Shown piece after piece: positions 3,941 through 9,434 of a stretch of 33,931 nucleotides of DNA (the stretch's first letter is position 1; every line of letters begins with the position of its first letter). The DNA is from Erysipelotrichaceae bacterium (GTDB lineage Bacteria; Bacillota_I; Bacilli_A; Erysipelotrichales; Erysipelotrichaceae): NCBI GenBank assembly GCA_022767445.1, contig JALENJ010000035.1, positions 1 through 33,931 on the forward strand, written 5' to 3'. The position numbers and the translations under genes were made by a program. Below the pieces are notes generated by a model that worked only from the letters and a program-made list of their open reading frames with translations, ran no database searches and was not told the DNA's origin.

Positions 3941-4001
3941 TAGTTTGCGAAATGACAGGACGCAGTATATTTACATTCGTATAACTGAATAATAGCTACA
4001 G

Positions 4002-4038
4002 AGCACTTTAGATTAGAAATAGTCTAAGGTGCTTTTTT
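4002..4038 (+). terminator. Intrinsic terminator of the cargo operon
   Basis: A 14-bp stem (4002-4015 with 4020-4033, two G-T pairs) closes on a GAAA loop and runs into six T residues. It separates the cargo operon from the mobilization genes, so the two are transcribed as separate units. Confidence 0.9.
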
Positions 4039-4065
4039 ATATGAATTATTAAGGAGGTACACACA

Positions 4066-4416
4066 ATGATTAACGTAGCAGAAATCACATCCACCAAAGG
4101 AGTGGAGCAGGCACAGAAACAGATGGAGCAGGCGAAGAACCGCATGGCTCTGGAGAAGAAGAAAGCCAACGAGGAAAGGAGAAAATTTGAGAACCATCAC
4201 AAGTACATGATGGGCGGTGCAGTTCACAAATACTTTAAGGATTGTTTCAGCTTTGAAGAATCGGAAATCAATGAAATCCTTGAGGTGGCATTTAAGACTT
4301 CGGAAGTCCAGAAAACTATCTCAGCCATTAGGAGAAGAGCAGGCGGTCATGTCGAGTCAAGTCCTGTCGAAAGCGAGGTGAAGTCGAATGAGTCAGAACG
4401 TACCGAAAGCCACTAA
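4066..4416 (+). CDS. Relaxase-associated small protein (DUF3847-like)
   Basis: 116 residues. The first 45 are highly charged and predicted to be coiled coil (repeated EQAQKQMEQAKNRMALEKKK-type sequence); the middle (HHKYMMGGAVHKYF) resembles the RRLIERGAIL-type segment of DUF3847 proteins that sit next to MobA/MobL relaxases. The tail is Ser/Glu-rich. AAGGAGG precedes the ATG. Immediately upstream of the oriT and relaxase, it may be an accessory factor for oriT recognition. That role is inferred from position. Confidence 0.6.
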   Translation: MINVAEITSTKGVEQAQKQMEQAKNRMALEKKKANEERRKFENHHKYMMGGAVHKYFKDCFSFEESEINEILEVAFKTSEVQKTISAIRRRAGGHVESSPVESEVKSNESERTESH

Positions 4417-4424
4417 TGCTTTAT

Positions 4425-4564
4425 CACCCAACTTGTTGGGTGCGCACAATACCATCTTCGATGGTATTGTGCGCCCTTCGGGGAGTCTTGCAGACGGCAT
4501 TGCCCCTATAAAGCTCGGGGCAAAAGGGGAAGCTACTCTTCCCCTTCGGTGCAAAAAACGCACC
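4425..4564. other. oriT: hairpin cluster with MOBQ nic-like core
   Basis: Between the accessory gene and the relaxase lie several perfect inverted repeats: 8 bp (4425-4432/4435-4442), 15 bp with a 3-base loop (4442-4456/4460-4474), 6 bp (4501-4506/4517-4522), 9 bp (4524-4532/4538-4546) and 5 bp (4548-4552/4560-4564). The right arm of the 15-bp repeat runs into TTGTGCGCCCTT (4467-4478), close to the AAGTGCGCCCT nic core of RSF1010-type MOBQ origins, which also has an inverted repeat on its 5' side. Together with the MOBQ-type relaxase downstream this is a strong oriT candidate. The exact nick position is inferred from the family. Confidence 0.8.
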
Positions 4565-4662
4565 TACCCTATTGTGCAACTTCAGAACAGCTTTACCACA
4601 AAAAGCCGTGGCAAATCTGATCTGAGGTTTTTTCGTGTGCCTAGCCGAAAGGTGGTGAGACG

Positions 4663-6171
4663 ATGCAGAAGTTTCTAAGCACCCGCATTTCGATTGTCAG
4701 CCGTTCCAAGGGCAGTTGTCGCTCCGCTATTGATGCGAACGGCTACATCGAAAGGGAAGAGCGTGATTGCGAGTATGACGGGCATCATTACAAGCCAGAT
4801 GCTAAAGAGGATTTAGTGCACAAGGAAGTGAATCTTCCAGAGAATGCACCCGAGGAATTTAAGGACAGTGCCACCCTTTGGAACTCAGTGGAGATGGTAG
4901 AGAAAAGCTCCAAGGCTCAGCTCTGCCGACACCTTAAAATGTCGCTACCGAATGAGTGGACTTATGAAGTTGCTGAGGAAGTGGTTCGTAAGTATGTTAT
5001 GGACAACTTTGTTTCCAAAGGTATGTGTGCAAATTGGGCTATCCATGATGCAGTAAACGAGAAGGGACAGCGCAACCTTCACTTCCATTGTCTGCTCACT
5101 TTAAGAGCACTTGATGAAAATGGTAAGTGGATGCCGAAGCAGAGGAAAATCTATATCCTTGATGAGAACGGGAACAAAATCCGCCAAGGCAAAAATTATA
5201 AATGCAAGACGGAGCAAGTCACCGATTGGAATGATAGGAAGTGGGGCAAAATCTGGAGAAGGAATCTTGCCGACCTCATCAATGAAACTAACGAAGCTCT
5301 TAAGATAGATGCACATTGGGAGCATAAGTCATTTAAGGAGCTTGGGATTGATGCACCGCCTACAATCCATTTAGGCAGCAAAGCCAACGCTCTGGAGAAG
5401 AAAGGCATCCATACAGAGCGTGGAGATTATAACCGTAAGGTTATGGAAATCAGAGGGCTCATTAATTTCATTGCAAAGACTTCTGCATCTATCGAATCCT
5501 TTGTCAGTGATAAAGCCCGACTCATCAAAAATGATGTGTCGGATTTAATCAAGGCAGTAGTGAAAAGGCATGGCAGATTGCAGTTGCCGATTATGAAAGG
5601 CGAGTTCATCAGAAAGGTATCTGGCAGAGAAAATTTGCAAGACCCAGAGAACATGTTGAGCTTTGCAGAAGCCAAGGGCATTACTAACTTTGATGAATTG
5701 CAGAGTTTTATGGATGAGCATGGAGCAACCTACGAAAAGTTAGATGCCGATTATGATAAAAGGTCTGACAGAATCAAAGAGCTTCACACCAAACTTCAAT
5801 CTTATGATCGCTATGCGGATTATCTTGAAGTTTATAAAAAGAGCAAGAGCCTTAAGGGTTTTGCCAAGCTGAAATTTGACAGAGATAATAAGGCAATGCT
5901 TGATGCGTACCCATCAGAACTTGAACGACTCCGAAAGGTAATTCCAAAGGGTGAGAAGGTCACACTTGGTAAATGGCAAAAGGAGATTGAACAGCTCCTT
6001 GATGAGCAAGAACCTATCGGCGCAAAGATAGGTGAAGAGGTTCACGACCTTACTTATGCCGAAGTCCTTAAATATAACAAGGGCAATGAAGAACGAGAGC
6101 AAGCGAATGATCGCAGCGCACGTGAACATCAAATAAGCAGACAGAGAAAGCACAGTTACTTGGAAAGGTAA
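4663..6171 (+). CDS. mobA: MobA/MobL-family relaxase (MOBQ)
   Basis: 502 residues. Nicks oriT and stays covalently attached to the DNA strand during mobilization. Visible: the N-terminal SAIDANGYIERE region (catalytic Tyr region of the family), the HUH metal motif in RNLHFHCLLTLR (about residues 142-147), and the conserved GIHTERGDYNR segment around 245. The C-terminal half is charged, helical and probably scaffold or primase-linked-like, with no recognised domain. Full length for the family. AGGTGGTGA precedes the ATG. Directly follows the oriT. It has no type IV secretion genes beside it, so it relies on a helper element. Confidence 0.92.
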   Translation: MQKFLSTRISIVSRSKGSCRSAIDANGYIEREERDCEYDGHHYKPDAKEDLVHKEVNLPENAPEEFKDSATLWNSVEMVEKSSKAQLCRHLKMSLPNEWTYEVAEEVVRKYVMDNFVSKGMCANWAIHDAVNEKGQRNLHFHCLLTLRALDENGKWMPKQRKIYILDENGNKIRQGKNYKCKTEQVTDWNDRKWGKIWRRNLADLINETNEALKIDAHWEHKSFKELGIDAPPTIHLGSKANALEKKGIHTERGDYNRKVMEIRGLINFIAKTSASIESFVSDKARLIKNDVSDLIKAVVKRHGRLQLPIMKGEFIRKVSGRENLQDPENMLSFAEAKGITNFDELQSFMDEHGATYEKLDADYDKRSDRIKELHTKLQSYDRYADYLEVYKKSKSLKGFAKLKFDRDNKAMLDAYPSELERLRKVIPKGEKVTLGKWQKEIEQLLDEQEPIGAKIGEEVHDLTYAEVLKYNKGNEEREQANDRSAREHQISRQRKHSYLER

Positions 6172-6181
6172 TTGTGCTTTC
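6146..6181 (+). terminator. Hairpin overlapping the relaxase stop codon
   Basis: GAAAGCACAGTTAC (6146-6159) pairs with 6168-6181 over 14 bp with one G-T pair; the TAA stop lies in the 3' arm. No T run follows, so it may weaken readthrough or protect the mRNA end rather than act as a full terminator. Confidence 0.4.
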
Positions 6182-6282
6182 TTGAACGAAAGTGAATATT
6201 TTTTAGGATAATGTTGGCGTATTATGAGGACATGGAGCTTTTAGTGTTGTATACTATTGTCCTTGTATATCAAGGAGCTTGA

Positions 6283-6612
6283 ATGATGGAAAACAAGAAA
6301 CGTTGGCTGTTATGCCTATTTATTTTTCTGTTTTCAGCTTCCGTATCGGTTGCGGTATTGCCGATTGGTATTGTAAATGCCTATGGCTTATTTGGTGAAG
6401 TAACGTCTTCATTTGTGACAGAGGACAAAGACTCTGAAATAGTTAATGAACGACAAATTTACGAGCTTAAAAAACAAGTCAAGGGAATCAACATCTACAA
6501 TATTTGGTTTGAAGTCTGGGTGTGCATTATATGCATGATTTTTGTCGCATATATGGTGAGGCTTCCAAGGTGCGATACCATTGTTTCCTTAAAAGTGCGC
6601 ATGGACGATTAA
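6283..6612 (+). CDS. Small two-helix membrane protein, unknown
   Basis: 109 residues with one hydrophobic helix at about 7-33 and a second at about 75-93, separated by a charged stretch (TEDKDSEIVNERQIYELKKQ). The first could be a signal anchor. AAGGAG stands 6 bases before the first ATG; a second ATG follows directly. I do not recognise the family. It lies between the relaxase and the DUF6483-like gene within the element, so it could take part in mobilization (for example membrane coupling to a helper) or be an accessory passenger. Confidence 0.6.
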   Translation: MMENKKRWLLCLFIFLFSASVSVAVLPIGIVNAYGLFGEVTSSFVTEDKDSEIVNERQIYELKKQVKGINIYNIWFEVWVCIICMIFVAYMVRLPRCDTIVSLKVRMDD

Positions 6613-6653
6613 AACTTTCTGCTTATAAAAACGGCAGAAAGGAGGTAAGACTC

Positions 6654-7031
6654 TTGTATGAACAAGATTATATCATGCGCCTCATACAGGAAATGGTAAG
6701 AGTAATTCTTAAACTTTTATTCAATATTGATACGGAATCACCTTCCGCAGAATTGATTGAGGATGCTGAAGAAAAGCAGACTTTGGAATCTTTGTTGGAT
6801 ATGGTTGATGAGGGCAGGATAAATGAAGCAGAAAACAGCCTATATGATTCAATCGAAAACATGAATAAAAGTGATATGGAAATGGCATTGCTGTTTTATT
6901 CGTATCTTAATGACAAATCTGATGAATTTCTTGAAGAACACGATTTTAATCGTGATGAAGTAAAACAGGGATTAGAATGTATTATGTCTAGATACGGGGT
7001 AAGTGGTATTGCAGAAATGTTTTTGAGGTAA
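6654..7031 (+). CDS. DUF6483-like protein
   Basis: 125 residues, helical and acidic, starting (M)YEQDYIMRLIQEMVRVILKL. This opening and the following LLDMVDEGRINEAEN segment match a family of small Firmicutes proteins I know as DUF6483, of unknown function. TTG at 6654 is taken as start because AAAGGAGGT sits 8 bases upstream and the family begins at this point. An earlier in-frame start would overlap the previous gene with unrelated sequence. The helical repeat-like layout suggests a protein-protein adaptor. Confidence 0.7.
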   Translation: MYEQDYIMRLIQEMVRVILKLLFNIDTESPSAELIEDAEEKQTLESLLDMVDEGRINEAENSLYDSIENMNKSDMEMALLFYSYLNDKSDEFLEEHDFNRDEVKQGLECIMSRYGVSGIAEMFLR

Positions 7032-7117
7032 TTTGATACAAATAATTCAAAAGGAATCGGAGCAAATCTGGTGCCTTTATTATCAAAATGCAACTAGGTA
7101 TTTGACCATAAGGTTGA

Positions 7118-7157
7118 AAACGTCAGTTAAGACAATACGTCTGAGCTGGCGTTTTTT
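7118..7157 (+). terminator. Intrinsic terminator before the recombinase unit
   Basis: 7118-7133 pairs with 7139-7154 (15 of 16 positions including G-T pairs, loop AATAC), ending in a run of six T residues. It ends the relaxase-side transcript before the small gene at 7180. Confidence 0.85.
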
Positions 7158-7179
7158 GTTTCTAGAAAGGGGTGATTTA

Positions 7180-7353
7180 TTGGCAAAGACAAAGATTAAA
7201 GTTATCCGTTGCTATGACGGTAATAGAACGGCAAAGGACATTCTCAATGAGGCTATCGCTTTAAAGGTCAGAAAAAAGCTCAATGACGATATAGAAAACA
7301 TAAGGAGAAAGGAATATAATTCAGATAGTACTCAATACAAAAAACACCCATGA
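7180..7353 (+). CDS. Small basic element protein upstream of recombinase
   Basis: 57 residues starting (M)AKTKIKVIRCYDGNRTAKDIL. The TTG start is supported by GAAAGGGGTG at the normal distance; sequence upstream in the same frame is non-coding terminator. Lysine/arginine-rich and helical. It sits 28 bases before the serine recombinase, a place where related elements often have a short protein of this kind. Could assist recombinase directionality, but there is no motif to prove this. Confidence 0.55.
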   Translation: MAKTKIKVIRCYDGNRTAKDILNEAIALKVRKKLNDDIENIRRKEYNSDSTQYKKHP

Positions 7354-7381
7354 GTCTATCTGGATTATGCGGGTGATGAGT

Positions 7382-9079
7382 ATGAGAATGACAAATTTAC
7401 AGATGGAAGAACTTCTTGCACCAACTTACAAGGTGGGCGTGTACTGCCGACTTTCCAAAGAGGATGAAGATATCCGAGATGGAGAAAGTCAGAGCATCGG
7501 TCATCAGCGTGAGATGATAGAGGAGTTCTGCAGAGCGAGAGGATGGGCAGTAGAGGAAGTCTATATTGATGATGGCTACTCTGGTACAACGTCAAACCGA
7601 CCAGACCTACAGCGTATGCTAAAGGACGTTGAGAAAAAGAAAATCAACGTGGTTGTTACCAAAGATTATAGCCGTCTGGGACGAGATAATCTTTTTACTG
7701 AACACCTTCGTGAGATTTGGTTTCCCAAGCATGAGTGCCGTTACGTGGCAATCAATGACAACATTGATACCATGTACGATGATGAAATCGCACCATTTAA
7801 GGCACTTTTCAATGCACAGTATTCAAAGGACATTTCCAAGAAAGTGCATTCTGCTTATATGAACCAAGCTCAGAAGGGAAGGTTTACCGGATGCGTTGCT
7901 CCATTCGGATATCTGAAAGACCCAGAGGATGCCACACACCTTATCATTGATGAGGAAACAGCACCTTTTGTTAGGCAGATATTTGATTGGGCACTTGATG
8001 GGCATGGAACGGCATTTATAAAGCGTAGACTTGAAGCAAATAAAGTGCCTTGCTCTACTTGGTGGAACAGACAGCGGGGCATCCGTAACCACTACACAAA
8101 GTGGGAGATACAAGACCCAGAGAACGGCAGATATGTTTGGGATGATTCGGTAATTGGCGATATGTTAATAAATCCCGTTTACTATGGAGCTATTGCATCA
8201 CAGAAGAAGAACTACAAGTTCAAAGTCGGGGTAATTAATGAGAAAAAGCCAGAGGATTGGATCGTGGTAGAAAACACTCACGAACCAATCATCGACCAAG
8301 ATTCTTTTGACATTGTTCAAGAGAAAATCGAGTCCAGAAAATGTAGCCGTGGAGATGGTACAACTTCTCTCTTTGCAGGTCTTATCAAGTGTGGTGAATG
8401 TGGTAAGGCTCTTACAATCCGTAAGACCAATGCAAAACACCCACAAGATATTTACGCTTGTGTAACCTACAATCGACATGGTAAGAATCATTGCACTCAG
8501 CACAGAATAGAGTTCGATACTCTTTACAACGTTGTGTTTGATGAAATCAAGGAGCTTGCTAATGAGGTTGTGGATGCTTATGACGTAGCCGAAAGCCTTG
8601 CTGATGCTTATGAGAGTGAGCGGAGAGAACAGTAAGAGCTACTGCAAAGAAACATCTGCAAGGCAAAGAACCGCTTGGAAACTTTGGAGCGTATGACAAC
8701 AAAGGCTTACGAGGACTTTCTCACAGAAACAATCACAGAGCCAATGTTCAATTCCCTTGTGGAGCGCACCAAGAAAGAGTCTGAGGACTTGATGAAGCAG
8801 ATTGCTCATGATGAGAAACGGCTGGCAAAGAACGGCAAGAATGACGGCAATGCAAGGAAGTGGATTGACCTTATCAAAGACTATGCCGATATCACAGAGC
8901 TTGATGCTGACACCGTTAATCGCTTGATTAAACAAATTGTTGTTCACGAAGAAATTACTGAGGACGGAACAAGAAATATCTCGATGGAGATACATTACAA
9001 CTTCCGCCCAACAGATGAATCAAAGACTTACAATCTATCTGAATACGCAGAGGCAAATTCTGTTGCCGAAGCTATTTAA
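7382..9079 (+). pseudogene. Large serine recombinase interrupted by an in-frame TAA
   Basis: Excises and integrates the element by serine chemistry. The catalytic serine is Ser25 in VYCRLSKEDED; YSRLGRDNL and GYSGTTSNRPDLQ complete the resolvase domain (residues about 17-165), followed by the recombinase domain and a zinc ribbon with CGECG and a later C near NHCTQH. The reading frame is broken by TAA at 8633-8635, after 417 residues, then continues in the same frame for 147 residues (8636-9079) with coiled-coil content normal for the C-terminus. If the TAA is real, the truncated protein lacks the end that controls synapsis and directionality. Possible starts are ATG 7367, 7376 or 7382; 7382 follows GGGTGATGAG. 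A one-base change (for example from CAA, GAA or AAA) would explain the stop. Confidence 0.9.
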
Positions 9080-9101
9080 GACAATTCTATAAAACTTCTC
9101 C

Positions 9102-9136
9102 GTACCAGAGTAGCTATTATTTTAGCTACTCGGTAC
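9102..9136. terminator. Hairpin after the recombinase
   Basis: 9102-9116 pairs with 9123-9136 (14 bp with one bulged A). It begins 22 bases after the recombinase stop. No long T run follows, so termination strength is uncertain. It may instead be close to the right end of the element. Confidence 0.5.
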
Positions 9137-9189
9137 ACCCTTATATTTCCAACAAACTTGGTATAACACACTTGAAGGCATACAGTCAT

Positions 9190-9296
9190 GGTATAAAATA
9201 AAAAAGATTAACTTGTAAAGGAACAAAGCTTTGTCCCCCAAATGGGGTAGGGTGTATGCCTTAGAATTCTCTTGTTCCTGGGGGTTAATCTTTTTT
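9190..9296 (+). ncRNA. Candidate structured small RNA, unknown class
   Basis: An extended -10 TGGTATAAA (9189-9197) is followed by a perfect closing stem: AAAAAAGATTAAC (9200-9212) with its complement at 9284-9296. Inside are AGGAACAA (9219-9226) paired with 9272-9279, and a CCCC-AAAT-GGGG hairpin (9236-9247). The predicted transcript starts near 9204 and ends in the six T residues of the right arm, about 93 nt. The stem is symmetric, so a minus-strand transcript is equally possible; a TATAAT lies at 9318-9313 on that strand. It does not fit the 4.5S/SRP, 6S, tmRNA or RNase P motifs I know. A simple bidirectional terminator with a big loop is the main alternative. Confidence 0.4.
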
Positions 9297-9317
9297 GTTT
9301 GGCTAAATTTTGATTAT

Positions 9318-9343
9318 AAGAAAACCCTTATGGATAAAGGGTT
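9318..9343 (-). terminator. Terminator of the tRNA-Arg gene
   Basis: On the minus strand AACCCTT (9343-9337), a 7-base loop and AAGGGTT (9329-9323) are followed by TTCTTAT. It lies 18 bases after the tRNA 3' end. Confidence 0.65.
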
Positions 9344-9360
9344 GGTGTAAGCCTATTCAG

Positions 9361-9434
9361 TGTGCTCGATGGGAATTGAACCCACAACCTTTTGATTCGG
9401 AATCAAATGCGCTATCCAGTTGCGCCACGAGCAC
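9361..9434 (-). tRNA. tRNA-Arg (anticodon CCG)
   Basis: The minus strand folds as a cloverleaf: acceptor GTGCTCG (9434-9428) with CGAGCAC (9368-9362), a D-stem GCGC...GCGC, anticodon stem TTTGA/TCAAA enclosing the loop TTCCGAA, and the T-loop GGTTCAATTCC. The anticodon CCG reads CGG (arginine). After the discriminator A (9361) the DNA reads CTG, so the CCA end is added after transcription. The gene lies immediately right of the transposon and of the structured element at 9190-9296. Confidence 0.95.

Follow-up and report, generated by a model that had tools for sequence, protein, structure and literature searches.

The prophage RNA RCd22 of C. difficile, about 100 nt long, has its own SigA promoter and neutralises the HEPN-fold protein AbiF in trans by direct binding (PMC12373285). 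AbiF with RCd22 (RF03085) is the nearest precedent for the RNA described here, which accompanies genes of the DUF3644 family. In both cases a prophage-borne HEPN-fold protein, a toxin in AbiF and a putative one here, lies beside an RNA about 100 nt long that has a separate promoter and terminator. However, AbiF is an Abi_2 protein and the partner here is DUF3644. The AbiF RNA is located upstream on the same strand, is partly co-transcribed and contains two RF03085 motifs, whereas the present RNA is located downstream in convergent orientation, is predicted to form one multibranched fold and does not match RF03085.

In the ToxIN system, ToxI consists of an array of repeats, and ToxN is not known as a HEPN protein. 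The RNA-protein principle is assumed to be alike in both. Phages carry mimics of the type III antitoxin, for example pseudo-ToxI in phage PhiTE (PMC3475682), and the tRNA-linked phage copies described below may be their counterparts. A type III repeat array upstream on the same strand is not found here, where the RNA is single-copy, convergent and downstream, and DUF3644, with a HEPN fold and an Rx4H motif, would be a predicted counterpart of the RNase toxin of type III systems. Nor is the antisense pairing of type I systems seen: in none of 40 loci is the RNA complementary to the start of the gene, and the 3' overlap amounts to a few nucleotides. HEPN-MNT (HepT-MntA) is similar in the HEPN fold of its toxin (Z 9.1), but has a nucleotidyltransferase protein as antitoxin in place of an RNA. 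DUF3644 itself was placed in the HEPN superfamily of RNases, with no RNA component given (PMC3710099), and PADLOC catalogues this protein, with which the RNA family is associated, as a single-gene candidate (PDC-S19/DUF3644). We found no paper on the RNA family in the literature searched; most subscription journals and preprints lie outside it, and an earlier description is possible.

A candidate small RNA beside tRNA-Arg(CCG)

The window, i.e., the whole analysed stretch of 33,931 nucleotides from an Erysipelotrichaceae bacterium, contains the following features in and around the RNA.

3991-9170, + strand: integrative mobilizable element (Pfam content), ending about 30 bp before the RNA and separate from it
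9172-9199, + strand: putative promoter TTGAAG-16 nt-TAAAAT (consensus scan), with an extended -10 element TGGTATAAAAT at 9189-9199
9200-9212, + strand: left arm of stem P1, perfect complement of 9284-9296; P1 covaries in relatives
9204-9297, + strand: almost certainly an orphan small RNA of the DUF3644-associated family; model R2, from which the window was left out, matches it at 66.2 bits (E 1.6e-14)
9219-9229, + strand: left side of P2 as paired in the family, with AGG at 9219-9221 and AGC at 9227-9229 on either side of a bulge (alignment, pair counts)
9236-9247, + strand: P4 hairpin CCCC-AAAT-GGGG; CCC-GAAT-GGG in most relatives
9249-9262, + strand: P5 hairpin, whose sequence varies and shows compensatory changes
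9274-9279, + strand: right side of P2, GTT-CCT (alignment, pair counts)
9284-9296, + strand: right arm of P1 and T-run, together the terminator; in relatives it overlaps the DUF3644 stop codon, and here no DUF3644 lies behind it
9360-9434, - strand: tRNA-Arg (CCG), a host gene with its own terminator at 9323-9343; in most relatives the same tRNA adjoins the HAD gene

The perfect 13-bp stem P1, the small hairpin with four base pairs inside it and the T-run at the 3' end are all present as an earlier sequence-only reading had claimed. Markov-shuffled windows are expected to yield on average 0.065 inverted repeats of 13 bp with a gap of up to 80, the nested stem arrangement was absent from 200 such windows, and the folding z-score of the RNA is -4.0. 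The 8-bp inner stem of that reading also exists, but it is peculiar to the window copy, since the family pairs P2 differently. Of a third inverted pair, proposed to compete with the inner fold, the right arm belongs to P5, whereas the left arm (9175-9184) lies outside the RNA, upstream of the -10 box. The extended -10 element, with TTGAAG 16 nt upstream of TAAAAT, predicts a start at about 9204-9206, inside the left arm, and not at 9200.

In the window, the tRNA-Arg(CCG) gene was the only Rfam match; its arrangement with the terminator, to the right of the RNA, is common to the relative G061. The RNA does lie next to a tRNA, but this closeness probably reflects integration of elements at tRNA-Arg(CCG) and not function.

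The mobilizable element to the left contains genes for a DUF3847-like protein, MobA/MobL, DUF6483 and a large serine recombinase (Pfam), and its ends were fixed by near-identical copies at other sites in Butyrivibrio. Since it ends near 9170, the RNA lies outside it, and the third inverted pair starts at the element edge; the RNA as an end of the mobile element is thus ruled out. A role as terminator of the YgjV operon to the left of the element was rejected as well, because this arrangement occurs in no relative and the RNA family explains the feature better. An integron attC-like layout was discarded, as the GATTAAC and GTTAATC boxes each deviate from the core consensus. A search of plasmids and phages with the recombinase end gave no match.

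Several observations concern the element and the rest of the window. The serine recombinase gene (7367-9079) has an in-frame TAA at codon 423 (8633-8635); two Butyrivibrio copies (L040, L041) are free of this stop and encode 570 aa, so intact copies exist. Over 422 residues the recombinase is identical to one in Butyrivibrio sp. LB2008, although the window genome belongs to another family. The right-hand target here differs from that in Butyrivibrio, which suggests a secondary site. The most stable fold of the window (4401-4550, -47 kcal/mol per 100 nt), which includes an inverted repeat starting at 4442, falls within the element immediately ahead of the MobA/MobL gene and is perhaps a transfer origin. 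Near the contig end, a uracil permease gene is apparently split over two frames (904-1167 and 1134-2210) and is likely a pseudogene.

The RNA family and its structure

Searches with blastn in the genus, order and phylum returned only short promoter or terminator look-alikes of the window RNA. A covariance model built from the window sequence alone (R1) found no further match in 70 genomes of the genus. In the wider taxonomic family it gave full-length matches in genomes G292 (52 bits), G105 (44 bits) and G178 (37 bits), together with weaker ones, and the first relatives found had their loop sequences and the offset of the upstream -10 box in common with the window RNA. Some weak R1 matches (L194, L197, L198, L200-L203) resemble simple terminators or unrelated sequence and were rejected; L202 and L203 gave no match with the second model.

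This second model (R2) was built from 46 RNAs partnered with DUF3644, with the window left out. It matched the window at 66.2 bits (E 1.6e-14) over model positions 1-93 of 93 and found nothing in a negative control of 705 kb of unrelated viral contigs, which had been those with chance matches to an earlier loose viral pattern. We therefore regard the membership of the window RNA in the DUF3644-associated family as practically certain. Judged from its sequence, the window feature is more than a bare terminator palindrome and reads as a small RNA gene, a diverged copy of the family.

The window RNA and ten canonical loci stayed under every gathering threshold of Rfam 15, that of RF03085 included; E-value thresholds gave no match for the window RNA or its relatives either, and there was no match of 6S RNA (RF00013) at the window RNA; the 6S-like match of this genome (45.9 bits) is on another contig. 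The family is thus new to Rfam 15, while RNA-controlled HEPN nucleases as such are already known (AbiF). The earlier view of a stand-alone RNA, about 93 nt long and outside the known classes, agrees with these results, and the relatives have the same layout and promoter offset and show extensive covariation. At the same offset, a sigma-70 promoter (TTGACA/TATAAT, at least 10 of 12 matches) is present in 35 of 44 relatives, compared with 2.75% of background stretches.

The family RNA consists of the terminator stem P1, P2 with an internal bulge, P3 (GGG/CCU), P4 (CCC-GAAT-GGG) and the variable hairpin P5, which form one multibranched structure present in a single copy per locus. According to the alignment, only P5 varies freely and there is no variable guide-like segment. 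RNAalifold predicted 23 pairs from 49 sequences, 15 of them with double changes. By pair counting, 94.9% of cells are paired, and covariation is 0.351 versus 0.184 in shuffles (reached in 0 of 500); when the partners were slid by 1-3 columns, pairing fell to 35-62%. Compensatory changes in the stems among relatives, which the sequence-only reading had suggested looking for, are thus extensive, so that a terminator-like palindrome alone fails as a description of the family.

The window copy departs from this structure. P1 and P4 are intact, P2 is possible but not favoured, and two of the three P3 pairs are lost. The family-type P2 (AGG..RGC / GYY-CCU) can be formed at -13.1 kcal/mol, versus -30.8 kcal/mol for the RNA's own optimum, in which P2 is rewired. 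Among the 48 columns kept by at least 90% of partnered copies, the window RNA differs at 10, a count whose P1 share is inflated by a one-base alignment shift; most partnered copies differ at 0-2 of these columns, and one of them (L211) also at 10.

Association with DUF3644

In five of the first-found loci the same gene lies at the 3' end of the RNA on the opposite strand. It encodes a DUF3644 protein (PF12358, E 9e-64 for G292) whose C-terminal domain is EC042_2821-like (PF18740), and the PADLOC PDC-S19 models match the partner proteins at 466 bits (G292) and 266 bits (G178). Among 272 genomes of the family, eight have a confirmed RNA, eight have DUF3644 and five have both (hypergeometric, 2.5e-7), the RNA count being a lower bound because R1 misses some copies.

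A similar picture was obtained for viral sequences. In 76 of 80 viral DUF3644 loci, R2 finds the RNA at the 3' end of the gene on the opposite strand, and in the remaining four (L230, L235, L240, L291) the contig ends at or just past the gene. Many of the 46 RNAs of R2 stem from these same 80 loci, so the scores are not independent; R1, the window-only model, had already matched the RNA in nearly all of 55 loci tested. In 38 of 40 loci the RNA extends at its 3' end over the stop codon of DUF3644, with a median overlap of 7 nt. In Listeria phage LP-HM00113468, Staphylococcus phage B_UFSM4 and Streptococcus satellite phage Javan9, the RNA is located between DUF3644 and the integrase and carries no RNA annotation in the records.

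Scans of viral contigs that started from the RNA found it in 63 and 44 contigs; the conservation of the core in these scans is partly due to selection, because the scan patterns required core sequence. DUF3644 is present in 45 of the 63 (one copy, L304, is broken) and in 35 of the 44, and missing from 18 and 9, respectively, although a few of the 18 offer too little sequence. We saw no intact DUF3644 of the RNA-linked clade without the RNA. No such RNA was found at divergent or truncated DUF3644 genes (L208, L212, and the plasmid copies L296 and L297), and the link therefore holds for one clade. It should be mentioned that L212, from G061 of the same genus as the window, is a truncated gene of a divergent clade beside another large ORF. 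Taken as a whole, a functional link between the RNA family and the DUF3644 nuclease can be assumed with high confidence.

DUF3644 is predicted, from its sequence and a structural model, to be an RNA-cutting HEPN defence nuclease. The AlphaFold2 model of the protein, made with 39 homologues, has a mean pLDDT of 84.5. Its residues 1-135 align with the HEPN chain 2hsb (Z 9.8, 118 aligned, rmsd 2.8), HepT 6m6w (Z 9.1, 112 aligned, rmsd 2.9) and Csm6' 8pe3 (Z 8.6, 126 aligned, rmsd 3.6), and the motif R98-x4-H103 is invariant. The E-values given by Foldseek itself are weak, and high scores come easily to helical bundles; we therefore base the assignment on Pfam, the published placement (PMC3710099), the motif and the HEPN chains in the top rows taken together. 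AbiF or Cas13 chains are absent among the structural matches listed, which excludes nothing.

DUF3644 is missing both from the site and from the rest of the window genome, which is 97% complete, and the RNA there is therefore an orphan; no convincing DUF3644 remnants were seen in the window. The RNA is probably a leftover of an earlier element at tRNA-Arg, and we read this copy as decaying or drifted; it may still give protection against DUF3644 elements or may have lost this ability. In other orphan loci a different gene occupies the DUF3644 slot, namely SIR2_2 (L310), DUF2326 (L321), Abi_2 (L330 and L403) or NYN (L393), and the RNAs facing these defence-like genes are full-length. Given these neighbours, two of them Abi_2, the RNA may have further partners. 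On the Fructilactobacillus ixorae plasmid NZ_CP097479 (L361, 2999-3090), an orphan RNA (92 bits) adjoins a tyrosine integrase, with a DUF5067 gene in the place of DUF3644.

In four phage loci the core lies directly behind a tRNA gene and near terminase genes, and its P1 has been lost or replaced:

L309, 1702-1929: tRNA-linked core copy
L340, 3817-3958: tRNA-linked core copy
L345, 322-448: tRNA-linked core copy
L350, 3096-3245: tRNA-linked core copy

The genes before these cores are those of tRNA-Ile (TAT) and of a tRNA-like RNA whose anticodon was called as cccc. By analogy, one may speculate that these copies are decoy RNAs.

Possible roles of the RNA

We consider it probable, though far from settled, that the RNA is the antitoxin of the DUF3644 nuclease. 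Whether on phages, satellite phages or integrated elements, the RNA carries a promoter of its own and runs convergently to the nuclease gene, whose stop codon is overlapped by the terminator made up of P1 and the T-run. The folded RNA would bind the nuclease and keep it inactive, as in a protein-RNA toxin-antitoxin system of the type III or AbiF sort, and infection or loss of the element would remove the RNA and free the nuclease. The family, its structure, the linkage, the promoters and the orphan state of the window copy follow from the analysis, while binding, inhibition and release are inferred. The RNA is often found alone and the intact nuclease of its clade never was, which suits an antitoxin, because loss of the toxin is harmless and loss of the antidote is not. 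Against this reading count the convergent layout of gene and RNA, unlike that of AbiF and ToxIN, the orphan RNAs that face other genes, and the departures of the window copy at 10 of 48 columns and its other favoured P2. Divergent DUF3644 clades have no RNA, so there the protein can exist without it.

The RNA might instead be a cofactor or sensor, scaffold or guide needed for nuclease activity or for recognition of infection, which we consider unlikely. A linkage this constant and a core so strongly conserved would also fit such a role, and HEPN enzymes such as Cas13 use RNA. However, a guide role is disfavoured by the lack of a variable guide segment, only P5 varying freely, and a cofactor leaves unexplained why the RNA often persists without the nuclease.

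Less probable still is that the RNA is mainly a conserved feature of an integrase-adjacent cargo site, such as a terminator or recombination border, with DUF3644 its commonest neighbour by history. SIR2_2, DUF2326, Abi_2 and NYN in the same slot of orphan loci speak for it, but a border or terminator needs neither covarying internal hairpins nor invariant loops nor a promoter, and in other phage loci the core lies near terminase genes after tRNA genes, far from this slot. Control of the DUF3644 mRNA by base pairing or transcription interference, in the manner of type I systems, is very improbable: the layout is convergent with overlapping 3' ends, but the overlap is a few nucleotides, and such control does not need conservation of a tertiary type. 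Complementarity to the gene start (z below -2) occurs in 0 of 40 loci, which disfavours antisense control. That the window feature is a terminator-like palindrome only, as its flanking A-tract and T-tract and the lack of near DNA relatives might suggest, has a negligible probability and is refuted, as far as its origin goes, by the whole-length 66-bit match to an independently built model.

If DUF3644 does have an RNA partner, a second lineage of HEPN nuclease under RNA control would join AbiF, a point relevant to how RNA-controlled HEPN enzymes such as Cas13 originated. More tentatively, and with rather more doubt than confidence, DUF3644 and the structured RNA may form a widespread unrecognised immune module, overlooked because the protein was catalogued alone, in which the tRNA-joined phage copies would act as decoys and bacterial orphan RNAs would protect their hosts against elements with the module. 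If so, the orphan RNAs and the tRNA-linked phage copies would make an arms race at the RNA level directly testable. Finally, if an RNA partner of DUF3644/PDC-S19 exists, work with only the protein would give misleading results.
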